From Lachnospiraceae bacterium M18-1 (lineage in GTDB: Bacteria > Bacillota > Clostridia > Lachnospirales > Lachnospiraceae): a stretch of DNA of 22,387 bases. Shown piece after piece: positions 554-18,810 of this stretch. Every line of letters begins with the position of its first letter. Position 1 is the stretch's first letter. The notes beneath the pieces are model-generated. The model ran no database searches, was not told the DNA's origin, and saw only the letters and a program-made list of their open reading frames with translations. The translations under genes were made by a program, and so were the position numbers. The stretch is from assembly GCA_000403295.2 (NCBI GenBank), contig KE159610.1, positions 1,037,970 to 1,060,356 on the forward strand, in the 5' to 3' direction.

Positions 554-582
554 TTGAAGGTTCCATACATCTATGCTATGAT
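554..582 (+). promoter_or_regulatory. Sigma-70-type promoter for the kinase/regulator operon
   Basis: TTGAAG (554-559), a 17-bp spacer and TATGAT (577-582) form a good vegetative promoter about 40 bp upstream of the kinase start codon. An in-frame TTG at 582 lies within the -10 box, so it cannot be the translation start of a transcript made here. This supports the ATG at 624. Confidence 0.65.
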
Positions 583-623
583 TGTATCAGCAATCAAAAA
601 TACTGCATCAAAGGAGTGACCAT

Positions 624-2408
624 ATGAGACCCAAACTGCAGAACTTTTTTGACCGGTTCCGTATTAAAAATAAGATCATCGTGGCATGTCTGCCGTTTGT
701 CATACTGAGTTATATCATTCTTTTTCTCAGCATCACACTGATCATGTATCAGCAGATGAGGACCATGGTCTATGACCAGACCCGGCAGAATATCATAGAA
801 AAAACCAATCTGCTGGATACATTACTCAACAATTACGACCAGATCACCACCAATTATCTATATTATACCCGTGATATCCAGGAATATCTGATGACTGACC
901 AGGAACCTTTATCCCAGGATTCCATAGATAAACTGCATCAAAATCTTGCTTCCCACACAGCACTGCTGCTTACGGATCAGAATCCGGAGATCGCGCAGGT
1001 CAGCCTGTTCAACAAAAACGGAGACCTGTATACGAACAACGCCATTTATTCGAATACACTGGAGACAGCAAAAGCATATGCAGATTCCATTCATTCCCAC
1101 GCCCGGGAGCATCACGGCAAGCTGATCCTGGAGGATATTCCTTCAAGACCCCACGTGCTAACAGTTGCACGGACCGTATATATTCCGACCCTGAAAGAAA
1201 GCGATGAGGAGATCGGCTTTCTGCTGCTGGACATTTCCCGCGCCGCCCTGGAAAAACAGCTCAAAATGCAGCAGAACTCCGATGCGATCTTTACACTTCT
1301 CACAGATTCCCACGGGAAGATCCTGATCAACACCTCTCCGCTGGAAGATAAAAAATGCCAGGAGATCATACTTGCAGGCCGTTCCGGCAAGAATAAACAT
1401 TATACGGTGGACAGGCGCGCCCTGTCTTACAGCGGGTGCTTCGTCACAAGCATTATTGACGAATCCATTCTGTTTTCCAATACTTACAAGCTTTTCTGCA
1501 TCGAACTTTTTATCATACTGCTGTCCGTTTTTATCATACTGTTCGCCATCATCTATTCCGGAAATATGATCTCCGGGCAGGTGTCCCGGTTTATCCGGAA
1601 GCTGAATCAGACTCAGCAGATTGATGAAAGCGCTTATATCAATGTGGAATCAAAGGATGAATTTCAGGAGCTGGGGCTGGTTTATAACAATATGCTCTCA
1701 CGTATCGACCATCTGATCCATACCGTCTATCTGAAAGAGATCCTGACGCAGAACGCCCAGTTAGAATCTCTCCAGGCACAGATCAACCCGCATTTTCTTT
1801 ATAATACGCTGGACTGCGTCAACAGCCTGGTCGATATGGGAGAGAAGGAAAATGTCAAGAAGGTGGTAACTTCCCTGGCCAATATCATGCGGATGTCTAT
1901 CAAAGGAGAGACCTTTGTCACCGTGGAAGAAGATCTTTCTTATATAAAGCAGTATATTTTTATCCAGAAAATGCGTTTCCAGGATAAGATCCTGTTCCTG
2001 ACAGAGGTGCCCGAGTCCATGTACCAGTATTATATTCCCAAGCTCACCCTGCAGCCGCTGGTTGAAAATGCAGTTCTGCATGGGGTGTCCAACCTGACGG
2101 AGACCGGAATGATCGGCATCTTCGGCTCTGAAGACGAGCAGAATCTATATATTGATATCAAAGACAACGGAACCGGGATGCCGCCCGGGATCATCCGGCA
2201 GCTGAAGGCCCTGGATGAGAGTTCCTCCATTTCCAGCAAACACATTGGTATTTTTAATATACAAAAGAAACTGCAGATTTTATATGGTACAGACTACGGC
2301 CTGACTGTAAGCTCCATCTCTCCGCATGGAACCAGCGTTACCATATGCATTCCAAAATCCACCGTACCCTACAGAAAGGATTCCTCCCATGAAATTACTG
2401 ATCGTTGA
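624..2408 (+). CDS. YesM/LytS-type sensor histidine kinase
   Basis: This is a 594-residue membrane sensor kinase expected to autophosphorylate and pass phosphate to the regulator encoded next. A membrane helix at about residues 18-42 and another at about 289-311 bracket an extracytoplasmic sensing domain of roughly 245 residues. A HAMP-like linker follows (about 312-365), then the His_kinase domain with phosphoacceptor His390 in the motif NPHFLYNTLD. The ATPase domain shows an N box (LVENAVLHG, Asn482), a G1 box (DNGTGM, 514-519) and GIFN at 542-545. The start at 624 is chosen for its AAGGAG site seven bases upstream and the promoter at 554-582. YesM-type kinases usually sit beside sugar transporters, as here, so a carbohydrate-related signal is inferred. 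The 3' end overlaps the next gene by 20 bases, which suggests translational coupling. Confidence 0.93.
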   Translation: MRPKLQNFFDRFRIKNKIIVACLPFVILSYIILFLSITLIMYQQMRTMVYDQTRQNIIEKTNLLDTLLNNYDQITTNYLYYTRDIQEYLMTDQEPLSQDSIDKLHQNLASHTALLLTDQNPEIAQVSLFNKNGDLYTNNAIYSNTLETAKAYADSIHSHAREHHGKLILEDIPSRPHVLTVARTVYIPTLKESDEEIGFLLLDISRAALEKQLKMQQNSDAIFTLLTDSHGKILINTSPLEDKKCQEIILAGRSGKNKHYTVDRRALSYSGCFVTSIIDESILFSNTYKLFCIELFIILLSVFIILFAIIYSGNMISGQVSRFIRKLNQTQQIDESAYINVESKDEFQELGLVYNNMLSRIDHLIHTVYLKEILTQNAQLESLQAQINPHFLYNTLDCVNSLVDMGEKENVKKVVTSLANIMRMSIKGETFVTVEEDLSYIKQYIFIQKMRFQDKILFLTEVPESMYQYYIPKLTLQPLVENAVLHGVSNLTETGMIGIFGSEDEQNLYIDIKDNGTGMPPGIIRQLKALDESSSISSKHIGIFNIQKKLQILYGTDYGLTVSSISPHGTSVTICIPKSTVPYRKDSSHEITDR

Positions 2409-3975
2409 TGATGAACCATTGATCCAGAAAAGATTAGAGCAGCTTATCACCTCGTCGTCCCTTGGGATACATTCCGTAATGTCCACTTCAGATCCCGCCC
2501 GGGCCATGGAGCTTTTGAAAGAATGTCCCCCTCAGCTCCTGCTTACAGATATCCGGATGCCCAGGATCTCCGGGGTCGATCTGGCACGTTATATTCACGA
2601 AAACCAGCTGGATACCCTGGTCATATTTATTACCGGCTACTCGGATTTCGAATACGCAAAATCCGGTATCGCCTACCAGGTATTTGATTATCTATTAAAA
2701 CCCATCGACGAAGAGCAGGCGCTGCTGGCTATACGTAAGGCCGTGCACACCATACTGGAAAAGCAAAAGCACGATGAGATCCACAGTATGTTCCAGAACT
2801 ATTTTTCCACCCATTTTTCTTCTGCCAGACGCCAGTTTATCGAAAGGCTCCTCTTCCATCCGCTCACGCAGACGAAGGAACAGCTCCTGTCGGTGCAGAA
2901 GCAGTTTCAGATGGATGCTGATTTCTTCTGTCTCTGTGCGGTCCGTTTCACCTGCAGCGGCGGTTTTGGCGAGGATTTTTACTATTCCTACATGATCGAA
3001 CAGCACCTGACCCGCAATGATCCGGATTTTCTGACCTATCCTTTCGGGGATACGATCTATATCTTATGGATGTCCGAAAACCCGGCGCCCACTTCCTCTG
3101 ACATGTATCAGAGATTCCAGAATATCCGGGAAACGCTGGAGCAGAGCTATCCGATCCAAGTGTCCGTCGGTATCAGCAATTTTACAGATGACCTGTCTCA
3201 GATACCTTTTCTGCGAAAACAGGTAACACGTTGTCTGGAAAATGCAGGCATCCGATCCACTTCACCGGTCACTTTTTTCAGCGACCTGCCGGATACGCTT
3301 GTTCATGAAGAGTATTTTGATATCATCCAGTCCATCACCAGACTGATCCGGCTGATGCGGCTGGGTGAAAAGGAACCCGTTCGAAAAGAATATGAAAAGA
3401 TCACAGAACAGTTTCAGGGCCGGTCAAAAAGCTATGTAACGGAGATGATCGATCTGATCACATCCAATATACTGCTGTTCATTCAGGATTTATCCATTCC
3501 TCCCACGGAAACAGCAAAGATCGAAAACAATATCCTGACCCCTCTGCGCCAGCAGACGGAGATCCGGCTGAAGCTGCAATATCTCCAGTATTGGATCGAC
3601 TTTATCGTTGACTGGATCAACGACGCGCAGGCGGCTGAGCAGAACCATCTGATCCAGAGCATCTATGATTATATCGATGCAAATTACAGCGACAGCATCG
3701 GGCTTGCCTCTTTATCTGAGCATGTCAGCAGGAATCCGTCTTACCTGAGCCGCTTTATCAAACAAAATACGAATAAGAATTTTTCCCAGATCCTGACTGA
3801 ACGAAGGATGGAGGAAGCGAAGAACCTTTTGCGCAATTCCAATCTGAAAGTGCCCCAGATCGCTGAAAAAACAGGATACCCGAATGTACGTTATTTTACC
3901 CGCGTATTCCACAGCCAGTTTTCCATGTCGCCTACGGATTACCGAAAGATCACCTCTGCATTTTTTAATTCCTGA
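2389..3975 (+). CDS. YesN-type response regulator with AraC output domain
   Basis: This 528-residue regulator has an N-terminal receiver domain (about 1-120) with the acidic pair Asp7-Asp8, phosphoacceptor Asp54 in LLTDIRMPR, Thr82 and Lys104. A middle region of about 300 residues of YesN type follows. A C-terminal AraC/XylS DNA-binding domain (about 425-525) carries two helix-turn-helix units; the second contains PQIAEKTGYPNVRYFTRVFH and the tail reads FSMSPTDYRK. The start is the ATG at 2389, with AAAGGA eight bases upstream inside the kinase gene. It is the cognate partner of the kinase. AraC-type domains usually bind direct repeats about two helical turns apart, which matches the site at 10188-10216 ahead of the transporter operon. 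The gene ends at a strong terminator. Confidence 0.93.
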   Translation: MKLLIVDDEPLIQKRLEQLITSSSLGIHSVMSTSDPARAMELLKECPPQLLLTDIRMPRISGVDLARYIHENQLDTLVIFITGYSDFEYAKSGIAYQVFDYLLKPIDEEQALLAIRKAVHTILEKQKHDEIHSMFQNYFSTHFSSARRQFIERLLFHPLTQTKEQLLSVQKQFQMDADFFCLCAVRFTCSGGFGEDFYYSYMIEQHLTRNDPDFLTYPFGDTIYILWMSENPAPTSSDMYQRFQNIRETLEQSYPIQVSVGISNFTDDLSQIPFLRKQVTRCLENAGIRSTSPVTFFSDLPDTLVHEEYFDIIQSITRLIRLMRLGEKEPVRKEYEKITEQFQGRSKSYVTEMIDLITSNILLFIQDLSIPPTETAKIENNILTPLRQQTEIRLKLQYLQYWIDFIVDWINDAQAAEQNHLIQSIYDYIDANYSDSIGLASLSEHVSRNPSYLSRFIKQNTNKNFSQILTERRMEEAKNLLRNSNLKVPQIAEKTGYPNVRYFTRVFHSQFSMSPTDYRKITSAFFNS

Positions 3976-4026: not shown

Positions 4027-4881
4027 TTATCTTTTTGCCCTGTCCAGCGTATATAAGACTGAAGCAAGACCGTACTGGAAAAAGTATACCTGACTCCGCG
4101 TCATGCCACATGCATCCTTTTCCCCTGACATTGGATCTTCCAGCAGCCTCTGGATACATTGTATCATGTCCTCGATATAGCGTCCGCCGATGGGTCTGAT
4201 ATAATGTCCTGGGAAGATCAGTTCATAATGTTCCTTCAGCGACTGCAGCTTTTTCAACGATTCCAGGTATACCCCCATTGTATCTGAAAATACATCCAGC
4301 ATCAGCGTGGGCGTGCTCACAATCGTATCCCCGGAAAATAAAAACCGATCGTCCCTGTCCAGAAGGCAGATGCAGTCCTTTGTATGGCCGGGTGTAAATA
4401 CTGTTTCCAGTTTCCGGCCTCCCAGGTCGAATATTTCCCCTTCTTCGATCCCCTCCAGTTCGTATTCCGCCGTTTCTTCCATGTACGCCCGCAGACTTGC
4501 CTTATAGCTGTACTCCGGCCTTGCCTCCTGCTGCAGGAAAAATTCTTTTCTGTACTCCGCCCGATTTTGCTCCCGGATCACAGGGAGCGCATTTTTATGG
4601 GCAAGCACTTTGTCAAAATGTCCGTTTCCTCCCACATGGTCATAATGGTGGTGTGAATTGACTACGATAAGCGGCTTTTCTGTCAGCTCCCTCACGACCG
4701 CGCGGATATCTCCGATGCCGATCCCCGTGTCCAGAAGCAGCGCTTTTTCGGTTCCGATGATCAGGTACATGATATCAATCCCAAACTCATCGATGGCCCA
4801 GACGTCTTTTGCTGTCTGCTGTATGGTAAAACCATTGATCTCCCTGATGTTCATATTATCTTTATAAAAAAATGGTGCCAT
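4027..4881 (-). CDS. Metallo-beta-lactamase-fold hydrolase
   Basis: This 284-residue protein has the MBL-fold metal site: the HxHxDH motif in NSHHHYDHVGG (His77, His79, Asp81, His82), His166 in FTPGHTKD, Asp185 in FSGDTIV and His226 in FPGHY. No signal peptide is seen, so it should be cytoplasmic. The fold covers thioesterases, glyoxalase II-like enzymes, phosphodiesterases and lactonases, and the substrate cannot be read from sequence. The start at 4881 is supported by AAGGAGG nine bases upstream; a second Met at codon 10 has no comparable site. It is the last gene of the transporter operon, 112 bp after the second permease, so a role in processing the imported compound is an inference. Confidence 0.88.
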   Translation of the reverse strand: MAPFFYKDNMNIREINGFTIQQTAKDVWAIDEFGIDIMYLIIGTEKALLLDTGIGIGDIRAVVRELTEKPLIVVNSHHHYDHVGGNGHFDKVLAHKNALPVIREQNRAEYRKEFFLQQEARPEYSYKASLRAYMEETAEYELEGIEEGEIFDLGGRKLETVFTPGHTKDCICLLDRDDRFLFSGDTIVSTPTLMLDVFSDTMGVYLESLKKLQSLKEHYELIFPGHYIRPIGGRYIEDMIQCIQRLLEDPMSGEKDACGMTRSQVYFFQYGLASVLYTLDRAKR

Positions 4882-4960: not shown

Positions 4961-5010
4961 CTGTCTGGTTATTTGGCCGCCCCCGCTGTCTGGTTATTTG
5001 ACCGCGCCTG
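4961..5010 (-). repeat. 25-bp tandem duplication across permease stop codon
   Basis: Two units, 4961-4985 and 4986-5010, share CTGTCTGGTTATTTG and differ at a few bases after it. A partial CTGTCTGG also precedes them at 4949-4956. The second permease's TAA stop (complement of 4994-4996) lies within the right unit, so the left unit is a copy of the gene's last codons placed beyond its stop. Confidence 0.75.
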
Positions 5011-5824
5011 CTGTCAGGCCGCTTGTAATATACCTCTGCCCTGCAATATAGATCACGATGATGGGGAGCATCGAAACCACAAGCCCTGCGATCAGCAGAT
5101 TCCACTGGGCATTGGTGGCTGATTTAAACATGTATAGATTTACGGTGATCGTCCGCAGATTCCCGTCACTGATGAGGATATTCGGAAGCAGAAGGTCGTT
5201 CCACGTCCAGAGAAAAAACAGGATTCCCAGTGTCACTGTGGCTGATTTTACCAGTGGAAATACAATCTGCATCATAATGCGGAAAGGCCCTGCCCCGTCA
5301 ATCGCTGCCGCTTCCTCCAGCTCCCTGGGCACGGTCTTTAAAAATCCCACATAAGTCATAATGCCGAACGCCGTAAAGAAACCGCTGTTAAACAGGATCA
5401 GTCCCAGGTGAGTGTTATTCAGATGCAGCTTTGTAGCCATGACCGATATAGGGATCATGACCGTGTGGAAGGGGATGATCTGTCCCAGTACAAACAGAAT
5501 ATAAAACCCGTCGGAAATCTTTCCTCGCAGATGGGAAATCCCATATGCCCCCAGGAAGGAAACGCTTCCTGCCAGCAGCACCGTACAAATGGTCACGAAT
5601 ACCGTATTTTTAAAAACCACCCAGAAGTTCATGGTTTCCATTGCCTGCACAAAATTGTCCAGATACAGACCCTTCGGCAGTGATATAAAGGATGTCAGAA
5701 TCTCGCCGTTGGGTTTGAATGCATTCATAACGATCAGGAGTACCGGCAGGATAAACACAAGGCCGGCCAGAAAGCACAGCAGGCTTTTCATCCATACTTT
5801 TCCTTGATTGCTCTGACTTTTCAT
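4994..5824 (-). CDS. Carbohydrate ABC transporter permease, MalG type
   Basis: This 276-residue inner-membrane permease of the CUT1 sugar-importer family has a first helix at about residues 13-34 and several more after it. The cytoplasmic EAA loop that docks on the ATPase is at about 170-190: EEAAAIDGAGPFRIMMQIVF. The C-terminal RYITSGLTAGAVK is typical of MalG/LacG-type proteins. The start at 5824 is chosen over further upstream codons: it is one base after the preceding stop, has a GGGAGGTG site about a dozen bases upstream, and gives the normal family length. It works with the permease encoded just upstream. No ATPase gene is nearby; many Firmicutes use one shared MsmK-like ATPase for several such importers. 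Confidence 0.93.
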   Translation of the reverse strand: MKSQSNQGKVWMKSLLCFLAGLVFILPVLLIVMNAFKPNGEILTSFISLPKGLYLDNFVQAMETMNFWVVFKNTVFVTICTVLLAGSVSFLGAYGISHLRGKISDGFYILFVLGQIIPFHTVMIPISVMATKLHLNNTHLGLILFNSGFFTAFGIMTYVGFLKTVPRELEEAAAIDGAGPFRIMMQIVFPLVKSATVTLGILFFLWTWNDLLLPNILISDGNLRTITVNLYMFKSATNAQWNLLIAGLVVSMLPIIVIYIAGQRYITSGLTAGAVK

Positions 5825-5825
5825 A

Positions 5826-6713
5826 TTACATCTGCACCTCCCTCTTCCGTGTGATCCGCAGCTGAATAAACGCAATGACCGCAACCATGAAAAACAATAC
5901 CATAGATTTTGCGGATGCATAACCTGTCTTATAAGCGCCAAATGCATCTGTATAGATGTTGAGGGCTATGGTCTGGGTACTGTTCGCCGGTCCCCCGCCG
6001 GTCAGCGACAGCGGGATATCAAAGGACTTGAACGCGCCCGCTATGGAGACAAACAGATTGATCGTTACCGTAGGCATGAGCAGAGGAAGCTGGATCCGGA
6101 ATATTTTTTTCAATCCCACGCATCCGTCCAGCATGGCCGCCTCGATCACATCCCTGGGGATCGTCTGCAGCCCCGCCACGTACAGCATCATCAGAAATCC
6201 CGTAGACTGCCAAGTGGTCACGATCACCACAGCCGCCATAGACATATCCGCATTTCCAAACCAGCTGATATTTACCAGATAGTCCAGATTCAGCCGCTCC
6301 CCTACGTTGGGAATGGCATTTGTAAAAATAAAGATCCATACGAATGCTACCATAACCCCGCTGATGATATTCGGGATAAAGAAGAAAGACCGGATCACAC
6401 CTTTCCCCCGGACATTTCTGTCCAGCATAAATGCCACCGCAAATGCAACGATATTCGATAAAATGATTGATACAACCGCCAGCATTATGGTAAAACCTAC
6501 TGCATGTATAAACCTCTCGTCCTGAAACAGCTTGATATAATTTCCGAGTCCGATAAATTCTTTTTTCCCTTTGATCAGGTTCCAGTTCAAAAACGAATAC
6601 GGAAGCGACCCGATCAGCAGGGGGCCTGCCAGCGCCGCACAGTAGAGCAGCAGCGCCGGGATCAGCAGCGAAAGATAAAATTTCTTATTTTTCTTGTACA
6701 AAAAATCTGACAT
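5826..6713 (-). CDS. Carbohydrate ABC transporter permease, MalF type
   Basis: This is a 295-residue CUT1-family membrane permease. The first helix (about 13-38) is followed by FIGLGNYIKLFQD, a sequence typical of the periplasmic loop start in this family. More helices follow, and the EAA loop is at about 191-210: EAAMLDGCVGLKKIFRIQLP. The C-terminus ends in RKREVQM. The start at 6713 has a GAGAGGTG site six bases upstream; a longer frame reaching 6812 adds an uncharacteristic basic stretch and covers the intergenic hairpins. It pairs with the MalG-type permease and with the binding protein whose gene is disrupted upstream. Confidence 0.93.
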   Translation of the reverse strand: MSDFLYKKNKKFYLSLLIPALLLYCAALAGPLLIGSLPYSFLNWNLIKGKKEFIGLGNYIKLFQDERFIHAVGFTIMLAVVSIILSNIVAFAVAFMLDRNVRGKGVIRSFFFIPNIISGVMVAFVWIFIFTNAIPNVGERLNLDYLVNISWFGNADMSMAAVVIVTTWQSTGFLMMLYVAGLQTIPRDVIEAAMLDGCVGLKKIFRIQLPLLMPTVTINLFVSIAGAFKSFDIPLSLTGGGPANSTQTIALNIYTDAFGAYKTGYASAKSMVLFFMVAVIAFIQLRITRKREVQM

Positions 6714-6749
6714 ACCGCACCTCTCTTCCCTGTCAGAATACCGCACTTT

Positions 6750-6820
6750 GCAGAAAGCCTTCCATCGGCGCTTTTTCTGCGTTCGAGCGGATGAAAATGG
6801 GAGAGGATCCATCCCCTCCC
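6750..6820 (-). other. Intercistronic hairpins between binding protein and permease
   Basis: In the 127-bp gap after the binding-protein stop, the transcript can form a 10-bp stem with one G-U pair and a 2-base loop (6799-6808 with 6811-6820). A second stem of about 7 bp is at 6750-6756 and 6774-6780. Such structures after a binding-protein gene commonly raise its mRNA level relative to the permeases through RNA stability or partial termination. That role is inferred here. Confidence 0.5.
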
Positions 6821-6840
6821 CTAAACTTTTTATTCATTGT

Positions 6841-7933
6841 CTATTCCAGCAGTTCCTGACATCCGGCGTCCATCACTTCCAGCGTTTCTGCCATGTCTGT
6901 GCTTCCTGCAAAATAACCCTGAACCGCAGGACCTACCGTGTCCGCGATTCCGGAAGGAAGCTGCAGATAGATCCAGGGCTTCGAGTTTCCGGATTCCATA
7001 TATGCGGTATAGTCTTTATAATATTGCTTGTCCAACTGCATCTCAAATTCCATAGCCGGAGGTGCTGCTCCCATGGCGTCTGATGAATAATGCATCCAAC
7101 CTTCTGCATCCGTATTATCCGCAATATAGTTCAAAACCTCCAGCGTTTCCTCCAGATGCTCTGATTTCTTGTTTACCACAATGCAGATTCCCACGTCCAC
7201 GTCAAGCTTTGCGTCTGCTTCGTCATCCGTATTCGGCACGCCGAACAGCCCCACGTTCAGATCCGGATTCACGCTTTCCGCATTCAGCAAAGAAAATTCC
7301 CCGCTGGCGATCATGGCTGCTTCGCCTGATGCAAAGGCATTAAATCCGGCAGTAGAATCTGCGTCCATATAATTTGATCCGGAATTATCTTTCATCAGAT
7401 CCAGGAATCGGAACACCTCTTCTGACCTGTCATTGGCGAAGGATCCTGTTCCTTCATTCATTTCCTGAACCCAGGAATCTCCCACAACATTTCCCTGCAG
7501 GCAGCTGAATAAATGGTTCAGCGTCCAGCCGTCTTTGTAGGTTGCAGCAAACGGTGTGATGTTCTTTTCCTGCAGCTTTCTGCATACCTCTTCCATCTCT
7601 GCAAATGTTTTCGGAACCTCTGTGATTCCTGCCTCTTCAAACAGATCCACATTATAATAAATCCCCAGCATTTCCAGACACATCGGATATGCGTAAGCTT
7701 TTCCCTCATAGCTGTATGCGTCTTTCACGGAATCATAAATCTTAGAAGAAAACTCCTGGCCGCTCAGATCCAGGATCCTGTCGTTTTCCGCAAACTGCTG
7801 TACCTGTGAATAAGGATTCAGAAAGAACATATCCGGCAGGTCATCGGAAGCAACCTTTGCCCCCAGATACTGATTATAATCTCCGGTCTGCATCTCAATC
7901 TGAAAATCAATCTTATCCTGACGGCTGTTAAAT
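6841..7933 (-). pseudogene. Sugar ABC transporter binding protein, 3' part (IS-disrupted)
   Basis: This is the C-terminal 361 residues or so of an extracellular solute-binding protein of the CUT1 type. It begins NSRQDKIDFQIEMQTGDYNQ and includes a segment resembling other family members (LPDMFFLNPYSQVQQFAEND). The signal peptide and first 65 residues are on the other side of the insertion sequence at 9907-10100. An open frame can be extended to a TTG at 7965, but that lies inside the insertion sequence, has no ribosome binding site and adds no signal sequence. Any product would therefore stay in the cytoplasm. The joined gene would code for 426 residues, normal for the family. The transporter is probably inactive unless the element excises precisely or another binding protein substitutes. 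Confidence 0.9.
7928..7933. repeat. Target-site duplication, left copy
   Basis: TTAAAT here is repeated at 9907-9912, directly flanking the insertion sequence. Removing one copy with the element restores the binding-protein reading frame. A 7-bp duplication (GTTAAAT) is also possible because the base before each copy is G. Confidence 0.85.
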
Positions 7934-7982
7934 CCTAAAACCCGGATAATAAAGACTCGAATCAATCGTTACTAAAATCCGA

Positions 7983-9740
7983 CTATCCTCGAAGTTTTAT
8001 ACCAAGCTTTTCCACAAACAACATATCTCTTTTCGTTTCTTCTGTCCGCCATCCACTCTTTTTCTTGCCGGACACTTTTGTTTCTTCTATTGCATCAAAC
8101 CACGATAGTATATTATGCATGGAAGTTTTTCGAATCCAATTTTTCAGTTGCTTTTCTTCCTTCAGTTTTTCTCCGGTATCGTGCTTTACATCACCATTTG
8201 GTATCGCCAACGTATCACGTAAGTTCCTGAGCATTGACGCAAAACTCTCATGCATACTTTGGGCAAGAAACCGCGCCAGGATCTGACCGTCGAGTGTATC
8301 ATCGTCCCATACCCTGGGATGATTTCCTCCGGTATGACTTTTACTATTCTTGAAATCCTCCTCAACATACTCTCGTGATCGGTATTTCTCCAGTGCCCTG
8401 TTTGTATCCTTTTCCTTCGATGCCACGAGTATTATGAAACCATGATATCTACATCTTTTCTCATATGCTTTTTTCTTGACTTCGACCCTAGTTATCCGTT
8501 CACCCCAATAACTGATTTCCATGTACTGGTCAGCGAATTTCTGGTCTTCTGGAGTAAGATATGCTCCTGACAGAAGATCTGATTTTACAGCATCGAACTG
8601 CATTCTGAACTTAATATCTTCCTCCGCTTTTTTTAGCGAGCTGAAGTAGATGTGAACATATACGCGTCTGGAAAGGATTTCTGTATCCCCCTTTTCAAGA
8701 CCGCTTTTCTTACTGGCCCTTTGTCTCTCATACGCAAAATCATGAATCTGCATGACGGTGACTCCCGAGAACTTCGGGTCACAATGTATGATCTCTCCAC
8801 CGTTCATGAGTTTGTCTCTGTATTCATTTATCAGGGGCTGAGTCCATTTTGTGTCTGTCGGGATATGCATAATAAACGGGTAGCTATTCTTTATCATCAT
8901 AATCATGTTGCTCTCGGCGGAATACCCGCTGTCTGCCACGATCTCTACCTTGGGACACCCGAGGATGTCTAGCTGTTTGAGTGCATTCTCCACAGTGGTT
9001 CCGTCAGAAATATTTCCCGGTATCCTCGCATAGGCAATTGGCTGCCTTGATGTTATGGAATATATCTCAACAATCTTATAGACATTTTTTATCAACTTAT
9101 CCTTATGGGGAGCACTCCTTCCTACATTCAGGTTTTCAGACTCCGTGTATATGGTCGTCGAATCCAAAGCCAGCAACTCCCCGTCCCCCATCGTTTCTGC
9201 CCTGTGTTTGAAAACGGACTGTTTGATGCTTTCATTGTAACCAAGGTAAACAAAAAGGTCATGATACATATCCTGCGATATGGACGAATCACGGTACGGA
9301 AGCAGTCCGGCATATTTCGTAGTCCATGCCCTGATTCCCGGCCATGTCTCCCCATCAGTTGCAAAGGCATACCACGCCAATGTCTGGAGCTTTTGCGCTA
9401 TGCCACGATCTCTTCCTACAGCTTTGTTGATTTCTGCGGTAATGCCGGACTTATCTGCAACATGGGAAACGATGTCAAGCATTCCGACATGTCTTCTGGT
9501 TATCTCAGTGGGCGTCACCCCGGAGCCTGATGTATGATCGGCCATACGTCTTTTCGGCCTTGTATCTACAATCTCATCAGTACCATTAACTATTTTTCCG
9601 ATTAAAACCTTCGAAATGGTGTCGCTATACTTCTTATTTGGATCATATTTCGTTTTACGTTCATATATATAGATATCACCATTTTTTTGCCGTTCCCTTA
9701 TAATTCCGACATTTATGGCACCTGAAGCTTTTCGCGGCAT
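7983..9740 (-). CDS. DDE transposase, IS4 superfamily (IS1634-like)
   Basis: This 585-residue transposase cuts and rejoins the element ends. The catalytic triad is visible: Asp193 in LLALDSTTIY, Asp270 in VEIVADSGY, and Glu460 within the IS4 signature Y-(2)-R-(3)-E-(6)-K, here Tyr453, Arg456, Glu460 and Lys467. The size and the long insertion between the second Asp and the Glu fit the IS1634 group, but assignment to that group is by resemblance only. There is no frameshift or stop, so the enzyme is probably active. The start at 9740 has AAAGGGG seven bases upstream and a consensus promoter about 35 bp before it. The gene ends 50 bp from the left end of the element. Confidence 0.92.
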   Translation of the reverse strand: MPRKASGAINVGIIRERQKNGDIYIYERKTKYDPNKKYSDTISKVLIGKIVNGTDEIVDTRPKRRMADHTSGSGVTPTEITRRHVGMLDIVSHVADKSGITAEINKAVGRDRGIAQKLQTLAWYAFATDGETWPGIRAWTTKYAGLLPYRDSSISQDMYHDLFVYLGYNESIKQSVFKHRAETMGDGELLALDSTTIYTESENLNVGRSAPHKDKLIKNVYKIVEIYSITSRQPIAYARIPGNISDGTTVENALKQLDILGCPKVEIVADSGYSAESNMIMMIKNSYPFIMHIPTDTKWTQPLINEYRDKLMNGGEIIHCDPKFSGVTVMQIHDFAYERQRASKKSGLEKGDTEILSRRVYVHIYFSSLKKAEEDIKFRMQFDAVKSDLLSGAYLTPEDQKFADQYMEISYWGERITRVEVKKKAYEKRCRYHGFIILVASKEKDTNRALEKYRSREYVEEDFKNSKSHTGGNHPRVWDDDTLDGQILARFLAQSMHESFASMLRNLRDTLAIPNGDVKHDTGEKLKEEKQLKNWIRKTSMHNILSWFDAIEETKVSGKKKSGWRTEETKRDMLFVEKLGIKLRG

Positions 9741-9754
9741 AAGATGTCCCCTTT

Positions 9755-9893
9755 CGTTTCGAGTCTCCTTTTATTATATGCGTACTCGTTATAAAAATCA
9801 ACATCTTATGTCCAAAAAGCCTTATAATAACAGTATTTGTGGTGTCTTTATGACCCGACTCTAACCGAAATCAAACGTTTCGAGTCTCCTTTT
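9755..9893. repeat. 18-bp direct repeat in IS right end
   Basis: CGTTTCGAGTCTCCTTTT occurs at 9755-9772, between promoter and transposase start, and again at 9876-9893 within the terminal inverted repeat. The inner copy therefore duplicates the likely transposase-binding sequence next to the transposase promoter. This would allow autoregulation or use as an alternative end; both are inferences. Confidence 0.75.
9773..9801 (-). promoter_or_regulatory. Transposase promoter
   Basis: On the minus strand TTGATT (complement of 9796-9801), a 17-bp spacer and a perfect TATAAT (complement of 9773-9778) point to the transposase gene, whose ATG is about 33 bp downstream of the -10 box. Confidence 0.75.
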
Positions 9894-9906
9894 CCCGGGT
9901 TTTGGG

Positions 9907-9912
9907 TTAAAT
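9907..9912. repeat. Target-site duplication, right copy
   Basis: This TTAAAT is the partner of 7928-7933. It is also the last part of the 5' fragment of the binding-protein gene, coding for Phe64 and the first two bases of the next codon. Confidence 0.85.
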
Positions 9913-10100
9913 ACGTCCGCACCTTTCTGGAAATTCTCCGCCGCTCCGGACGACCAGACAACCAGCTTTACGGCAGTCTTCCCCCCGTCGCCGGAAGCCC
10001 CTTCCGTTTTGCTCTCCTGCTCTGATGTCCCTCCCTGACATCCGGCGAGTCCCAATACCATAAGGCCAGCAAGCAATACACTTATGACTTTTTTCTTCAT
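9907..10100 (-). pseudogene. Sugar ABC transporter binding protein, 5' part (IS-disrupted)
   Basis: This is the first 64 codons and part of codon 65 of the binding protein. It has a lysine start, MKKK, a hydrophobic stretch and a lipobox LAGC with Cys21 as the lipidation site. A Gly/Ser/Glu-rich linker follows, then the first strand of the mature protein, KTAVKLVVWSSG. This is the normal N-terminus of a Gram-positive sugar-binding lipoprotein. The AAGGAGG site upstream of the ATG at 10100 is strong. Translation would run on into the insertion sequence and stop at 9861, giving a 79-residue product with 15 foreign residues. The joining codon (AA plus C from position 7927) restores Asn65 and continues SRQDKIDF at 7926. 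Confidence 0.9.
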
Positions 10101-10150
10101 TACTCTTTACCTCCTTGTACTTTTGAAGTGCCTTTTTGTGTCATGAATTT

Positions 10151-10180
10151 ATCATAACACAATCCGAAGGCTGCCGTCAG
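10151..10180 (-). promoter_or_regulatory. Promoter of the transporter operon
   Basis: On the minus strand a weak -35 CTGACG (complement of 10175-10180), an 18-bp spacer and an extended -10, TGTTATGAT (TATGAT is the complement of 10151-10156), lie about 50 bp before the binding-protein start. A poor -35 with a good -10 is what is expected of a promoter needing an activator. Confidence 0.6.
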
Positions 10181-10187
10181 ACACCAG

Positions 10188-10216
10188 ATTTTTACAAATG
10201 ATGCACAAATTTTTAC
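10188..10216 (-). promoter_or_regulatory. Candidate AraC-type operator, repeats 21 bp apart
   Basis: ATTTTTAC occurs at 10188-10195 and again at 10209-10216; on the transcribed strand it reads GTAAAAAT. The repeats are exactly 21 bp apart, two helical turns, and the nearer one ends seven bases from the -35 box. AraC-family activators bind repeats with this spacing and position. The YesN-type regulator at 2389-3975 is the obvious candidate to bind here; that link is inferred. Confidence 0.55.
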
Positions 10217-10247
10217 TGTCCTTGGTACAGGAGGATCTCTGCACGCC

Positions 10248-10277
10248 AAAAAGAGCAGCCTTCCCGCCGCTCTTTTT
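10248..10277 (-). terminator. Terminator after glycoside hydrolase gene
   Basis: AAAAAGAGC (10248-10256) pairs with GCTCTTTTT (10269-10277), with two further inner G-C pairs after one mismatch. It lies about 70 bp after the hydrolase stop codon and upstream of the transporter promoter, so the two minus-strand genes are probably separate transcription units. The A/T symmetry would allow termination in both directions. The rest of the gap 10101-10344 holds the operator and promoter of the transporter. Confidence 0.75.
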
Positions 10278-10344
10278 CCACCTTTATCTATGCCGAAGCA
10301 GCAAGTGCACGGCAACATATAAACAGAAACCGTTGATCCAAGCA

Positions 10345-13002
10345 TCAGCTGCAGTATAACTCGACCTTCCCAAACATCCCCATCGGCTCTAACGCCTCAT
10401 GTGTAAAATCAAACGGCGGCTGCGGGATCTCCAGCATTTCCCTCAAGGGTGTGCCGGCCACCTCCACAACGATCTTATTCTCCCCGGCTTTGAGTCCGCC
10501 GCTGATCTCCACCTGATATGGCGGAAAGATCCGCACGCCTGCTTCGCTTCCATTAACAGTCACTTTCATCATCTCAAACACATGCTCCGCTTTCAGTACA
10601 GCCCTCTCCGGCGCCTCCTCCAGATACACCGTTTTTTCATAGCATGCTATACCAGAAAACGAGGGTTTTAAATCAGAAACAGGAATCAACTGATGCATCC
10701 TCTCCCCTTCCGGGAACTGCGGATATTCTTTAGATTTCACCAGGCTTACTGTCCAGTCTGCAGAGATATCCCTGATTTTCAATCCGTTGATCTGTTCCCT
10801 GAAACTTTTGTGTTTCGCATTGCATACTATATTTTTTTGTTCGAGTATCACGACACATTCCCCAGGTTCCAATTCCAGTGAAACTTCTATGTTTCCTTTC
10901 ACTTCACGAAAATCCGCATGCTCATACACATCTTCCATAGCATCATAATATACAACCGGCTCCACTGTCGGCAGTGTCACCTTCCCGCAAAACATCTCCG
11001 TTGCCGATTCGTTTTGGAACACAAAAATCTGCCGGTCTTTATTATAATGATAGAAGCTCAGATCCTTAAATTCCCTATCCACTTCAATATCCACAAATCC
11101 TCTTGCTTTCAGTTTCCCGGCCAGTTCTGACAGAGCGATAACCTCTCCGCCGGCCACTGCCCTGAAGCCTTCCCCGTCTTTTGCCGCGGTCCGCTCTGTG
11201 CGGCCGCCTGTTCCGATCACAGTCTCTGGTTTTCCGTCCACGAAGATCACCGGAAACTCCCCTGCCTGTTCCACAAATGCCGCCAGCCTCTCCGGAATTT
11301 CTTTCGTATGCCCGATGATCAGCGCCTGGAATTGCACCCCGTTGATATACAGCGTCTTTCCCTCCAGCCTGCCGTTATATGCAGCCAGGTCATCCAGCAT
11401 ATCCAGGCATACGATATCCAGATCGATCTGGTTCTCCAAAAGCTTTCGGATCACTTTCTGCATGGGCATATTTTTACCGGTCCAGTCTGCCTCCCCGTCA
11501 TAGAGGACCGCAGCAGAAGCCACATGCTGTCCGCCGTTTAACAGACCGCACATCCGGTTCGCATACTTCATCATCCTTGCAAAATACGGAAATTCCGGGT
11601 TATTGCCACGCGCATAGAAGTGGGGCGGGCAGTCCGGATCCGGATATTCCGCCATGGAAAATGCATGGGGAACCAGATGGTTGACTCCCTTCACCAGCAA
11701 ATGGTCCAGCAGATACTTCATATCCCGCACCCCGAAGCTCCATCCATAGGCGCCGAACAGCTCGCACATGGTCCTGCCCTGCTTCTTCGGTTCTAAGTGT
11801 CCGCAGGAAGCCCCCAGCTTCCCAAGCGTATAATGGAAAAATTCCCCGTCGCAGTCCGTCATCGCGTTGCGCTGCTCCACCGGCGCTCCGTAGAGGATCT
11901 GTCCGCCGATGCTGTCGATGCCCGCCATATGCTGTCCGGACATAGCCCGGAAATAATGGGACGGTCCCATGCCTAAACGGCTGTGGATCCCGTTGTCCTC
12001 CACCACATGCCCGATATACTCCACGCCGTGCGCCTCACACCAGTTCCCGATGGCATCGCTGAAATTCTTTTTATAAAGCTTTGACACCTGATCCATATAG
12101 TCGTAGCGTATGCCCGTCCGAAGCGCCTGCTCCTCGGACTCCGCAAACAAGAACGGAAGCGCTTTTGTCAGTTCCCCGCCGTACAGCCCGGTCAGGTTTT
12201 CCTGCAGCTCGCCGCTCCAGGGAAGCTGCATTTTCAGCCTGCCCACCTGGACATCATAATTGTTGAAGACCACCACATTTCCAAATTGAGGCTCATCCGA
12301 GAAAAAGCCTGCGATCGTCTTGCCGAACTCACTGCCGTATCTGGCATAATGAGACTCATAGACCCCCTCGATCTGAGTCGCCGCCGACTCCTTGTCGATC
12401 ATATTGATGTAGGTATCATTCCCCCCGTCTGTCCGTGTCTTGTAGAGTACAAACACCCTCCAATTCCCTTTTGGAAGGGTAAATTTTACATAGCATCCGT
12501 CATAATTCTCCGTCAGGTCAATGACTTCCTCATGGAACACATTTCCCTCTGCGTACCGCACGGCCAGTATGGCATACAGCTGGTTATTTTCCCGTTCCGC
12601 ATGATCCGCCGGATCCCCAATCTGCCAGAATCCGATGGAAGGCTTCCGCATCCGGTTCACATTCAGACTCCGCTCATGCGCTCCCCCGAAGATATCCGCC
12701 GTCGTACATGCCAGATACAGCTTTTTACGCTCCGGGTACTTCTTTTCGATCAATCCATTGGCGTATCCGGTCGGAAAATGCTTGTCGTCCAGGATCCAGA
12801 GCTTCATATCTCTCTTTTTCGCCTCGTCCAGGACAATGTCCATATCATGCCACCAGCCCGGCCCGCAGAAATCCTGGTGGGGACGTGCCTCCAGGCACAC
12901 CGCACGAATCCCGCACTCATAGATCTTCTCCATCTCTTCCCGGAGGACTGCCTCCTCTTCGCCGCGCATCCACAAAAACGGTAAAATATAATTTTTTTCC
13001 AT
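10345..13002 (-). CDS. Glycoside hydrolase-like protein (GH106/GH2-related)
   Basis: This 885-residue protein has no signal peptide and so is probably cytoplasmic. The N-terminal part looks like a TIM barrel (PFLWMRGEEEAVLREEMEKI near the start). It has the acidic motif GFFSDEPQF at about 232-240 and GHVVEDNG at about 331-338. A long conserved-looking stretch follows at about 345-400 (GPSHYFRAMSGQHMAGIDSI). The last 110 residues or so resemble a galactose-binding-like beta-sandwich as found in GH2 enzymes (KAGENKIVVEVAG). The whole layout recalls GH106 alpha-L-rhamnosidase-like proteins, but neither the family nor the substrate is certain. The start at 13002 is preferred to a TTG at 13026: the ATG has AAAGGAG 11 bases upstream, and that site is itself inside the longer frame. 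It lies just upstream of the transporter operon, consistent with cleaving an imported glycoside. Confidence 0.72.
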   Translation of the reverse strand: MEKNYILPFLWMRGEEEAVLREEMEKIYECGIRAVCLEARPHQDFCGPGWWHDMDIVLDEAKKRDMKLWILDDKHFPTGYANGLIEKKYPERKKLYLACTTADIFGGAHERSLNVNRMRKPSIGFWQIGDPADHAERENNQLYAILAVRYAEGNVFHEEVIDLTENYDGCYVKFTLPKGNWRVFVLYKTRTDGGNDTYINMIDKESAATQIEGVYESHYARYGSEFGKTIAGFFSDEPQFGNVVVFNNYDVQVGRLKMQLPWSGELQENLTGLYGGELTKALPFLFAESEEQALRTGIRYDYMDQVSKLYKKNFSDAIGNWCEAHGVEYIGHVVEDNGIHSRLGMGPSHYFRAMSGQHMAGIDSIGGQILYGAPVEQRNAMTDCDGEFFHYTLGKLGASCGHLEPKKQGRTMCELFGAYGWSFGVRDMKYLLDHLLVKGVNHLVPHAFSMAEYPDPDCPPHFYARGNNPEFPYFARMMKYANRMCGLLNGGQHVASAAVLYDGEADWTGKNMPMQKVIRKLLENQIDLDIVCLDMLDDLAAYNGRLEGKTLYINGVQFQALIIGHTKEIPERLAAFVEQAGEFPVIFVDGKPETVIGTGGRTERTAAKDGEGFRAVAGGEVIALSELAGKLKARGFVDIEVDREFKDLSFYHYNKDRQIFVFQNESATEMFCGKVTLPTVEPVVYYDAMEDVYEHADFREVKGNIEVSLELEPGECVVILEQKNIVCNAKHKSFREQINGLKIRDISADWTVSLVKSKEYPQFPEGERMHQLIPVSDLKPSFSGIACYEKTVYLEEAPERAVLKAEHVFEMMKVTVNGSEAGVRIFPPYQVEISGGLKAGENKIVVEVAGTPLREMLEIPQPPFDFTHEALEPMGMFGKVELYCS

Positions 13003-13116
13003 CTCCGCTTCTTCTCCTTTTATCAACTTCTAATATCGTGCTTCTGATCATAAGCATATACCTTTTCCGCTTTGCTGTAATGTAGATTCCTTACTTTCTG
13101 ATTGTATATTTTTGAC

Positions 13117-13165: not shown

Positions 13166-13220
13166 ATAGAAGTATTTTTCAAATACACTCTAAAGCACGT
13201 AACGAAAGAGGACATTGATC

Positions 13221-14186
13221 ATGAAAAATTACAGCGAGGACGCTGACCTCCGCGGCACTCCCCGGGCAGTGATCTCCCAGGTGCAAAAAGCGGTAGTCGG
13301 AAAATTTGATATCATTGAACAGATCATGATGGCATTTCTTGCGAAAGGGCATATCCTCGTAGAGGACATCCCCGGAACCGGCAAGACCACTATGGCCCTG
13401 GCATTTTCCCACGCCATGGGCTTAAGAGCCAACCGGGTGCAGTTTACCCCGGACATACTCCCGGCAGATCTGACCGGGTTTACCATTTACCAGAAAGAGA
13501 CCGGACAGTTTGTCTACCAGCCCGGCGCAGTCATGTGCAACCTCCTGCTGGCCGACGAGATCAACCGGACCTCTCCAAAAACCCAGTCCGCACTCCTGGA
13601 GGTGATGGAAGAACGTCATGTCACCGTGGACGGCACCACCCGAAGTGTGGGAAATCCTTTTATCGTCATCGCCACGGAGAATCCCACCGGTTCTGCCGGA
13701 ACCCAGCTCCTCCCCGAATCCCAGCTGGACCGTTTCATGATCTGCGTAAAAATGGGTTACCCCACGGTCACGGAAGAGGTAGACATCTTAAAACGAAATC
13801 AGTTCGGCCGGGCAGATTCCCGGGCTGAGCGTGTATTTTCCGCCGACGGCCTGCTCGAAGCCCAGGAACAGGTGAGCGAGATCTTTGTCCATGATGCGGT
13901 CTATTCCTACATCGCCCGTCTGTCAAAAGCCACCCGGGAGCAGGAAATGATCTCCCTGGGTTTAAGTCCCCGGGGCACCATCGCGCTGGCCTCCATGGCG
14001 AAGGCATGCGCTTATCTGAACGGCAGGGAATACGTTGTTCCGGATGATGTCAGGGCCGTATTTCCCGCCGTTGCCGCACACCGCATTCAGCTCAGTACCA
14101 AGGCCAAAGTTGGACATATCCTGGCGGGCGACCTGATCCAGCAGATCCTGGACCACACGGCCGCGCCGGCACTTTCCAAAAGGTAA
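13221..14186 (+). CDS. MoxR-family AAA+ ATPase
   Basis: This 321-residue ATPase has Walker A EDIPGTGKTT (about 48-57), Walker B LLLADEINRTSPKTQ (about 108-122), a sensor-1 region IVIATENPTG and a later LSPRGTIALASMAKA helix with the conserved Arg. Length and motif order match the MoxR family, whose members act as chaperone-like ATPases and are usually encoded beside DUF58 and transglutaminase-like proteins, as here. The start at 13221 has AAGAGGA eight bases upstream; the TTG two codons earlier lies too close to that site. It is the first gene of a three-gene module likely acting at the cell envelope. Confidence 0.95.
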   Translation: MKNYSEDADLRGTPRAVISQVQKAVVGKFDIIEQIMMAFLAKGHILVEDIPGTGKTTMALAFSHAMGLRANRVQFTPDILPADLTGFTIYQKETGQFVYQPGAVMCNLLLADEINRTSPKTQSALLEVMEERHVTVDGTTRSVGNPFIVIATENPTGSAGTQLLPESQLDRFMICVKMGYPTVTEEVDILKRNQFGRADSRAERVFSADGLLEAQEQVSEIFVHDAVYSYIARLSKATREQEMISLGLSPRGTIALASMAKACAYLNGREYVVPDDVRAVFPAVAAHRIQLSTKAKVGHILAGDLIQQILDHTAAPALSKR

Positions 14187-14289
14187 TTTCAGCAGTGCAA
14201 CCGGAAATCTCCCCTGCCCGCAGCCAGATCCAGCCGGATCTCTTCCACACAGCAGGCAGTCTTCCTGATCCATGCGGAAAGGAGCACAT

Positions 14290-15390
14290 ATGATCACACG
14301 CATCATCGGATATCTGCTGGTCTTTTTCATCAGCGCCTATCTGTTTTTTATGTATGACGGAAATATCTGGACCGGCTTTCTCATCCTGGAACTCCTCTAC
14401 CCGGTCAGCTCCTGCCTGTTCCTCTGGTACATGTGCAGGCAGGTGACCGTCCGGTTCGGCAGGTTTCCGGCCATGGCCGAACGGGAAAAACGGTTTTCCG
14501 GCGTCCTGGTCATCAAAAACCAGTCCCGGATCTGGAGTGTAAAGTATAGGCTCTGTGCACAGGTGAGAAATCATTTTTCCAGACAGCCTGTCCTGCGGAT
14601 GCGAAAGGGCGGCTTCAGGAAAAGTTCCTCCCACCGGATAAAATACGCCCCTTCCGAGCTCTTCCCCGCAGAGGAGCAGCGGCTGGAGATCGAGCTGGAT
14701 TCCCGGTACGCAGGAACCGTAGAGTATCAGCTGGATGCCCTGGTCCTCTACGATCTTCTGGGAATCTTCTGCCGCAGAGTCTTGCTGAAAAAACAGCGGA
14801 CCATCGGGATCATGCCTCCTTTTGAACTGATGCCTCTGGAGATCACGCGGCGGACACGGGAATTTCTTGCAGAAGCGGACGAATATTCCACGGAAAAAAA
14901 GGGCGATGACCCCAGCGAGGTCTATCAGATCCGAGAATACCGCCCGCCCGATTCGATCCATTCGATCCACTGGAAGCTGAGCGCCAAGGAGGATCACCTG
15001 ATGGTCAAGGAGCACGGATTTCCCATGGGATGCGTGGTGCTTCTCTGGATCCGCCTGCCTCTTGCAGATACGGACAGCAAAAGCTTTAACCGTCTTCTGG
15101 AACAGGCAGCCTCCCTGTCGGTCACCCTCCTCGAGGAAAAATGCATCCATATGGCCGCATGGTTTGAGGAAAAAAGCGGCCGCGTCATTAAATGGAGAGT
15201 CAGCACAGCCGAATCTGTCTATGAATGGATCTGGCGGCTTTTGTCCACCGAGCCCTTCCAGGATGAAGAGCTGGAAAAGACCTGCCGTGAGGATGCGTTC
15301 CGGGGCATAAATTTCAGCAGTACCGTAGAGCTGAATGCAGACGGAACATTGACCGTAAACGGCGAGCCCCAGGAATTACTGCAGCTATAA
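14290..15390 (+). CDS. DUF58 domain protein
   Basis: This 366-residue protein has two closely spaced hydrophobic helices at the N-terminus (about 5-21 and 26-49) and a mostly cytoplasmic or beta-rich body. The DUF58 signature is clear at about 213-245: EVYQIREYRPPDSIHSIHWK followed by LSAKEDHLMVKEHG. The family is of unknown biochemistry but is repeatedly found in operons with MoxR ATPases, and some members have a von Willebrand A-like fold. The start at 14290 has AAAGGAGC about six bases upstream; an earlier in-frame start at 14272 lies before that site. It is 103 bp after MoxR, with no terminator between them. Confidence 0.9.
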   Translation: MITRIIGYLLVFFISAYLFFMYDGNIWTGFLILELLYPVSSCLFLWYMCRQVTVRFGRFPAMAEREKRFSGVLVIKNQSRIWSVKYRLCAQVRNHFSRQPVLRMRKGGFRKSSSHRIKYAPSELFPAEEQRLEIELDSRYAGTVEYQLDALVLYDLLGIFCRRVLLKKQRTIGIMPPFELMPLEITRRTREFLAEADEYSTEKKGDDPSEVYQIREYRPPDSIHSIHWKLSAKEDHLMVKEHGFPMGCVVLLWIRLPLADTDSKSFNRLLEQAASLSVTLLEEKCIHMAAWFEEKSGRVIKWRVSTAESVYEWIWRLLSTEPFQDEELEKTCREDAFRGINFSSTVELNADGTLTVNGEPQELLQL

Positions 15391-15418
15391 AAACATCCTA
15401 TCTGTCCGCCTGTAAAAT

Positions 15419-15449
15419 CTGCACTGCAGACAGCCGCTCTGCAGTGCAG
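15419..15449 (+). other. Perfect 12-bp hairpin between DUF58 and transglutaminase genes
   Basis: CTGCACTGCAGA (15419-15430) pairs perfectly with TCTGCAGTGCAG (15438-15449) across the 7-base loop CAGCCGC. No T-run follows, so it is unlikely to be a full terminator. It lies 29 bp after the DUF58 stop and 35 bp before the next start. It may set RNA stability or partial read-through within the operon. Confidence 0.6.
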
Positions 15450-15483
15450 GCTGGTTACAAAATACGAAAGGATCCCCCTAATT

Positions 15484-17703
15484 ATGAAGGAACGGAAAAA
15501 GATACGGGACGGGATCGCATTATATTCCCCGGCCGTCAAAAAGCAGCCCCATCCTTTCCTGCTGGCCGCAGTACAATTGTCTGCGGTCTGGTTTCTTGCG
15601 TTCTCCTGGTGGCAGAGCCTGACCGGCGTATTTCCTGTTGAGGCAGATACCCCCAGGCTGTATCTCCACTGCTTTCTTTTTACAGCCCTCCTGACCGCGC
15701 TCTGGAACAGCCCCCTGCGGGAGCTTTGGAAATACAGCGTCCTGCTTCTGCTTTTCTGCCTTGCCGGAGCCTGGATCTGGCGGCATCTGGAAGCTGCAGT
15801 CAATGTGATCAATCTGACAGCCAACGCCTATCTGGCTGTCAGAAGGCCCAATGCCGATCCCTATCCCATCCAGCCCGTCTCCGATCCGGAAATGGCGCTC
15901 ATGTTTGCGCTCTTCCTGCTGCCCCTGCTGTTTCTCTGGAGCCTGATCCTGCATCTCAGGAAGGGAAGGGTTTTCGCGTACCTCCTGCTTCTGGCTCCCG
16001 CCGCCTTCATTTTGGCGGAAACTCTGGTTCCTTCTGAGCTCTCCTGCTGGCTCCTGCTCCTCTCCGGCGGAATCTACGGAACGATCTGCGGCTGCAGGGA
16101 AGGACGCGGCGCGCTGTTCAAGGGAATCCTTTCCGCGTGCATCCTGGCCCTGCTGATCCTTCTGTCCGCCTTCACGAGCCGCCCTCTGGAAGCCTATAAG
16201 GAGCCGTCCGACGGCTTCTATGCCCGCACCCGGGAAGCCATCGAAACCGAATGGATCAAGCCCCTGCAGGATTCTTATGCCCAGGCAAAAGCAAAACGCG
16301 AAGAAAAAAAGCAGCTTGCCCAAAAAAGCAGATCCGAACAGGAAAAAGATCCAGACCAGGACAGCACAGACGAGACTCCCTCTGAAAATGTCCCTGACCA
16401 GCCGGAACAGGAACCGAACACCCCTGACCAGCCGGAGCAGGAACCAGACGCTCCGGAGACAGCGCCGGAAACAGACATCCAGCCGGATTTTTTCACAGAC
16501 TCCGCCCTGGAGACTCCGGACAGTTCCCAGCCCTCCGATGGAAATTATTCAGGAAATCCCCCGGATTCCTATATCGTTACTACTCCAGACGGAACGTTTT
16601 CCGCCAGCACAGATACATTTCCGGATCTGAACGCCCTGACCCATTTTCAGCCGGACAGCGGCGTCCGGCTCACCGTCGCCCTGGATACCAGGCCGGAAGA
16701 GACCATATACTATCCTTCCGCATATGGCGTATACTATAGAGACAGTCATTGGTATCATCTGGATTCCGAAAGCAGCACCCCTGTGGAAAGCTATCTGGAA
16801 TATCCGGAGGATCTGAAGCGCCTGAAAAAACACTGCCAGAAGCAGATTCTCACAACACTGGAAAAAACATCCGAATTTATCCAGAAAGAATTTGAGGAAT
16901 ATACCGTGTACGATTTCGAACCGGGGCCTACCCCTTCCGGGCAAGATTTTGCAGAATACTTCCTCTTTGACAATCAAAAAGGCTTCTGTGTCCATTTTGC
17001 CACAACAGCGGCACTGATGTACCGCATATGCGGATTTCCGTCCAGATATGTACAGGGCTATGCCATTCCCGCCTCCGCGTTCCGCCGCCAGGAGGACGGC
17101 AGCTACGCCGCAGAGGTCACCGGGGACATGGGACATGCCTGGTGCGAGGTTCTGGAAAATGAGGAATGGATCACCATGGAACATACCCTGCCCTATCACG
17201 GCGTCCGCCCGGAGTCCGGCATCCCTGCCGTATCCAGCGGCAGACAATCCTGGATCCGCAATGCCGCAGGCTGGCGGCTTTTTGTCCTGAAATCCTGTGC
17301 GATCGGCCTCTTCTGCCTGGCCGCTGCCGCCCTGCTCCTCTTCACCCAGGCAGCGCTCCGGAGACAGCGCAGATACCAGAAGTTCCGCAGTACCCGCCGG
17401 GGCGCCGGAATCCGGCGTATCTACCGCGCCCTCTACGATACGGCAGTGTTTCAGGGAATGGAAAAAACCGATATATTAAGCTCCCAGGGCTTTTTGAAAC
17501 TGCAGGGCTGCCTTCCCCAGATTGCTGCGGAAGATATGGAATGGCTCTATCAGGCTGTCCTGGAAACCATGTTTTATCAAAGAACTGTAACAAAAGAAGA
17601 CACAAAGCATGCATGGAAGATCTATCAGCAATTTTCACATACATTCAAAAAAGAACTGACTCTTTCCAAAAAATTCATTTACAATTACATAAAAGCACTG
17701 TGA
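15484..17703 (+). CDS. Membrane transglutaminase-like protein (TgpA type)
   Basis: This 739-residue protein has about seven predicted membrane helices in residues 25-230. A charged, proline- and glutamate-rich linker follows (about 270-360) with a repeated PDQPEQEP unit. Next are an extracellular transglutaminase core (about 395-580), a last membrane helix (about 598-622) and a cytoplasmic tail resembling DUF4129. Catalytic Cys502 (KGFCVHFATTA) and His551 (MGHAWCEVL) are present. The third position, normally Asp, appears to be Glu566 in WITMEHTLP. This is the TgpA-like partner of MoxR and DUF58; the reaction may be peptide cross-linking or hydrolysis in the cell wall and cannot be fixed from sequence. 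AAAGGA lies about 12 bases before the start at 15484. Confidence 0.92.
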   Translation: MKERKKIRDGIALYSPAVKKQPHPFLLAAVQLSAVWFLAFSWWQSLTGVFPVEADTPRLYLHCFLFTALLTALWNSPLRELWKYSVLLLLFCLAGAWIWRHLEAAVNVINLTANAYLAVRRPNADPYPIQPVSDPEMALMFALFLLPLLFLWSLILHLRKGRVFAYLLLLAPAAFILAETLVPSELSCWLLLLSGGIYGTICGCREGRGALFKGILSACILALLILLSAFTSRPLEAYKEPSDGFYARTREAIETEWIKPLQDSYAQAKAKREEKKQLAQKSRSEQEKDPDQDSTDETPSENVPDQPEQEPNTPDQPEQEPDAPETAPETDIQPDFFTDSALETPDSSQPSDGNYSGNPPDSYIVTTPDGTFSASTDTFPDLNALTHFQPDSGVRLTVALDTRPEETIYYPSAYGVYYRDSHWYHLDSESSTPVESYLEYPEDLKRLKKHCQKQILTTLEKTSEFIQKEFEEYTVYDFEPGPTPSGQDFAEYFLFDNQKGFCVHFATTAALMYRICGFPSRYVQGYAIPASAFRRQEDGSYAAEVTGDMGHAWCEVLENEEWITMEHTLPYHGVRPESGIPAVSSGRQSWIRNAAGWRLFVLKSCAIGLFCLAAAALLLFTQAALRRQRRYQKFRSTRRGAGIRRIYRALYDTAVFQGMEKTDILSSQGFLKLQGCLPQIAAEDMEWLYQAVLETMFYQRTVTKEDTKHAWKIYQQFSHTFKKELTLSKKFIYNYIKAL

Positions 17704-18780: not shown

Positions 18781-18810
18781 AGCGCCCCTGAGTATGGAGG
18801 AAAAAACACC

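Follow-up and report, generated by a model that had tools for sequence, protein, structure and literature searches.

Interruption of a sugar-binding lipoprotein gene by an IS1634-family insertion sequence in Lachnospiraceae bacterium M18-1

Two pieces of what reads as one ABC sugar-binding protein gene lie on either side of a transposable element in the stretch of DNA analysed here (22,387 nucleotides, referred to below as the window). This arrangement raises the question of whether the pieces do belong to a single gene and, if so, whether the element that divides them has caused a mutation or forms part of a switch. We are highly confident that codon 65 of a CUT1-type ABC sugar-binding lipoprotein gene was the target of a complete IS1634-family element, which entered by ordinary DDE transposition, and that the result is a loss-of-function mutation, either fixed or segregating (Table 1). 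The insertion duplicated six A/T bases, as the two copies in the sequence show, and the DDE chemistry is what would be expected of the element's family.

That a single lipoprotein gene had been split by a complete insertion sequence, leaving its frame recoverable, was the central proposal of an earlier note, and it is borne out when the two flanks are joined with one copy of the duplication: the join rebuilds Asn65 (AA + C) and gives 426 codons from the start at 10100, upstream of which stands AAGGAGG. Read from the same start into the element, the gene instead meets a stop after 79 codons. By eye, the 5' part carries a signal peptide and, under the general lipobox rule, a lipobox-like LAGC. 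The 3' part belongs to a 374-residue frame that begins with TTG inside the element and extends to the native stop, and in which SBP_bac_1 and SBP_bac_8 score above the Pfam cut-off (97.0 and 95.5 bits). The gene thus combines the Pfam domain, the lipoprotein signal and the adjacent permease genes by which we recognize an ABC sugar-binding protein.

Intact relatives tell the same story at the protein level. With the 3' part (362 residues) as query, the best of the 101 proteins listed is P0001 (99% identity over the 362 residues), an uninterrupted public protein of 426 residues whose cluster has 64 member sequences and whose best solved relative is annotated as a maltose-binding protein (9xor, E 5.7e-42). 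The earlier note held that an intact relative at odds with the joined sequence would count against it; P0001 is equal in length to the joined protein, aligns to it without gaps and shares 419 of its 426 residues. The next proteins, P0002 to P0005, are identical to the joined protein at 395 of 426, 378 of 432, 356 of 427 and 320 of 428 aligned positions, respectively. At six of the seven positions where the window protein and P0001 differ, the window residue recurs among the 14 relatives aligned (of the 101 listed); the exception is Gly121, which none of the 14 has (10 Asp, 3 Glu, 1 Ser). The assertion that neither half is otherwise damaged therefore stands as regards frameshifts and stops, of which there are none, and is qualified by this private substitution. 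The claim that the insertion is recent is weakly supported by the clean halves, which do not date it.

The locus is also found unbroken at the DNA level. While a single-protein scan of genome contigs gave 28 pattern matches and no relative, an alignment-based scan gave four loci from 29 matches, the closest match found being L001 ("Eubacteriaceae bacterium isolate B36_36_MI_H genome assembly, contig: MGBC000105.9"; Clostridia), in whose name MGBC stands for a mouse-gut catalogue. In L001 the binding-protein gene runs without a break, its DNA being 76% identical to that of the window over 1,295 aligned positions, and the target hexamer occurs once, as GTTTAA, compared with ATTTAA on the coding strand of the window. 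A locus without the element, such as the earlier note had suggested looking for, is present in a related genome, and the pieces do not turn out to belong to different genes there. Gene order after the binding protein is identical: permease 1 (84% identity), permease 2 (87%), an MBL-fold gene (76%), a response regulator (75%) and a histidine kinase (80%). L001's genome has three weak matches to the transposase, the best at 28% identity, and the binding protein was found at E <= 1e-60 in at least two of 295 genomes drawn as relatives of that genome, L001's own included (at most six first-look candidates were scored per genome).

Table 1. Features of the interrupted locus and its cassette, in window coordinates (L001, related locus with the gene unbroken)
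Feature	Position	Strand	Basis or remark
Histidine kinase and AraC-type response regulator	582..3975	+	Pfam; relatives beside cassette in L001-L004
MBL-fold hydrolase, same cassette	4027..4881	-	PF00753; L001 76%
ABC sugar permease 2, intact	4994..5866	-	PF00528, L001 alignment; true start probably slightly inside frame
ABC sugar permease 1, intact	5826..6719	-	PF00528, L001 alignment
Sugar-binding lipoprotein gene, whole span including element	10100 down to 6841	-	Interrupted in codon 65
3' part of binding-protein gene with one duplication copy	6841..7933	-	Last base of codon 65 to stop, 7927-6841
Target site duplication TTAAAT, left copy	7928..7933	strandless	
IS1634-family insertion sequence, 1,973 bp	7934..9906	-	Ends, duplication and transposase family
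Terminal inverted repeat, left	7934..7961	strandless	
Transposase, 585 aa	7983..9740	-	NF033559, PF01609; D193, D270, E460
Exact 18-bp inner copy of right-end sequence	9755..9772	strandless	Between predicted promoter and transposase start
Predicted transposase promoter TTGATT-17-TATAAT	9773..9801	-	Consensus scan only
Terminal inverted repeat, right	9879..9906	strandless	
Target site duplication TTAAAT, right copy	9907..9912	strandless	
5' part of binding-protein gene	9907..10100	-	Signal peptide, codons 1-64 and two bases of codon 65

The boundaries of the element are well defined. Its two terminal repeats agree at 22 of 28 positions, a figure reached by none of 20,000 dinucleotide shuffles of both ends (maximum 21), and the probability that a 6-bp repeat would fall exactly at them by chance is about 1 in 4,096. 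A 1,973-bp element flanked by TTAAAT duplications had been reported earlier, and we confirm both.

The element belongs to the IS1634 family, a group of DDE transposases split from IS4: its transposase scores 204.4 bits against the NCBIfam IS1634 model NF033559, for which the cut-off is 100. IS1634 elements are described in PMC2266710 as 1,500-2,000 bp long (Table 1 of that source), with 5-6 bp duplications in A/T-rich tracts, and the window element, with 1,973 bp, a single transposase frame and an A/T-rich 6-bp duplication, agrees with this. The same source gives IS1634 transposases a long spacer before the E, compared with a D-E spacer of 100-150 residues in IS4; here 76 residues separate D193 from D270 and 189 separate D270 from E460. 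The YREK motif is complete (Y453-R456-E460-K467), and in keeping its arginine the transposase differs from most members, five of 32 having it as reported there (PMC2266710). The family's ends are described as poorly conserved, with a printed consensus of C-----YT (PMC2266710); both ends of the window element start with C as in that consensus but have AC, not YT, at positions 7-8. Unlike the family's namesakes IS1634 and IS1549, which in this account make long variable repeats of 8-514 bp (PMC2266710), the window element makes none.

Close relatives of the transposase are to be found among proteins. The nearest, P0102, differs at three of 585 residues and belongs to a cluster whose 165 member sequences are spread over 11 contigs of up to 2,424 bp, which suggests a repeated element as seen in short-read assemblies; P0103-P0109 are 82-84% identical. 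In genome searches that scored at most four first-look candidates per listed genome (295, 295 and 391 genomes), the element's DNA gave at least two short matches, of 48 and 33 bp (E about 1e-3), among 295 relatives, and the transposase was found in at least one of 295 relatives at E <= 1e-80 and in at least one of 391 genomes of the class at E <= 1e-100. The element's DNA had no match among plasmids, where the transposase matched four records, all below 26% identity; the transposase matched nothing among phages and one locus (31%) among viral contigs.

The element further departs from the description of its family in that 18 bp of its end sequence recur internally. The sequence AAAAGGAGACTCGAAACG stands at 9876-9893, at the right end, and again exactly at 9755-9772 as a direct repeat; no exact direct repeat of 18 bp or more arose in 1,000 dinucleotide shuffles of the element (longest 16), a comparison that weighs the copy against chance only. 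The inner copy lies directly after the predicted -10 box and ends ahead of the ribosome-binding site presumed for the transposase gene, a placement suggesting that the transposase could attach close to where its gene begins and so repress it. Promoter-like matches in 6600-10500 are at chance level (7 compared with 6.8 expected), and we regard it as possible, though doubtful, that the transposase binds this copy over its predicted start site and represses its own gene. The 18-bp motif was not found in viral contigs. The DNA relatives of the element, L012, L013 and L014, are distant (44%, 31% and 37% identical); no similar repeat is listed for L012, whose transposase begins 38 bases from the contig edge so that the upstream region is missing, and none occurs in the part of L014 that was covered (its first 2,600 bases out of 3,697).

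Could the two halves be different genes, or the contig have been mis-assembled around a repeated element? Copies of insertion sequences often confuse assemblers, and the closest transposase is indeed confined to 11 short contigs, none above 2,424 bp. A false join, however, is unlikely to leave a 6-bp duplication at both ends together with the two halves of a 426-residue protein, and the gene in L001 is unbroken. On these grounds we reject both the mis-assembly and the two-gene readings, to which we attach very little probability. Less probable still, in our view, is that the split gene goes on working, with its 3' frame expressed from the element and yielding a usable binding protein. The TTG-started frame of 374 residues would allow for such expression, but its product is without signal peptide, lipobox and the 64 N-terminal residues.

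There is somewhat more to be said for a reversible on/off switch, in which precise excision between the TTAAAT copies would leave some of the population with a restored gene, although we consider this too to be quite improbable. The duplication is intact, the halves are free of frameshifts and stops, and public sequence data include a protein that is uninterrupted and 98% identical. That protein, P0001, nevertheless carries its seven residue differences, which indicate another strain rather than an excised copy of the window gene, and a duplication is by itself no sign of switching. Target duplications that permit precise excision are left by most insertions of this kind, and the earlier note's description of the event as reversible finds no support beyond the presence of TTAAAT. 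The excision switch of IS492 is similar in that an insertion sequence lies inside a gene whose frame its precise loss would restore, but IS492 belongs to a different family. The insertion is a loss-of-function mutation and not a demonstrated switch, and an IS1634-family disruption of a sugar-binding protein gene is an ordinary event.

Turning to the consequences of this mutation, the 3' part retains an open frame but no signal peptide, so that an exported binding protein is not expected. CUT1 importers need such a protein to work, and the two intact permeases would be left without their own. Unless a different binding protein takes its place, this importer most probably does not function. It is a reasonable reading of the locus that the importer is off, as the earlier note had it, and plausible that another binding protein encoded in the genome could serve the permeases. 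Both permease genes are intact downstream, as was also claimed, to judge from PF00528 and from alignments to L001 that cover 297 of 297 residues of permease 1 and 273 of 290 of permease 2 (counted from the upstream frame start). The element and the operon have the same orientation, and a consensus scan lists no terminator within the element beyond the transposase stop, so permease transcription may continue from the element.

The cassette resembles CUT1 importers with a YesM/YesN-like two-component regulator, sharing with them the binding lipoprotein, two permeases, histidine kinase and AraC-type response regulator; likewise, none of the window proteins scanned is an ABC ATPase. The histidine kinase, whose Cache domain scores below the cut-off, and the response regulator are likely to regulate the cassette. 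Unlike such cassettes, the one in the window has an interrupted binding-protein gene, and a weakly GH106-like gene lies upstream. That gene (10345-13026, a frame of 893 residues) resembles alpha-L-rhamnosidases below the cut-offs (PF17132, 26.0 against 29; NF045579, 43.3 against 50; NF049897, 88.4 against 1300) and matches a single PDB entry, 6q2f. The stretches retrieved for L001-L004 (20-21 kb each) and L009 (4.2 kb) contain no counterpart that we could find. Downstream of the binding-protein gene and ahead of permease 1, nine base pairs form a predicted stem-loop (6799-6820); its equivalent in L001 also has nine pairs and occupies the same place but differs in sequence (11292-11317, coordinates by hand). 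Hairpins in this position are common.

Elsewhere in the window, 13215-17703 holds a row of genes for a MoxR-type ATPase, a weak DUF58 protein (below cut-off) and transglutaminase-core proteins, and 18079-21882 a second two-component pair followed by a 536-residue DUF6034 protein with a lipoprotein-like start (by eye). A serine-rich frame with DNA repeats at 48 and 72 bp spacing (21998-22387) runs off the window end, and repeats with a 21-bp step occupy the left edge (5-149), where the one minus-strand frame translated contains stops. No tRNA was found in the window, and no Rfam family reached its gathering score there.

Lastly, the inner end copy offers a small lead on possible self-limitation of IS1634-family elements. 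For the organism, what the locus presents is one insertion that probably disables a sugar-uptake cassette while its permeases and regulators stay intact, and automatic annotation would likely list the pieces of the binding-protein gene as separate genes and so mis-predict sugar use.
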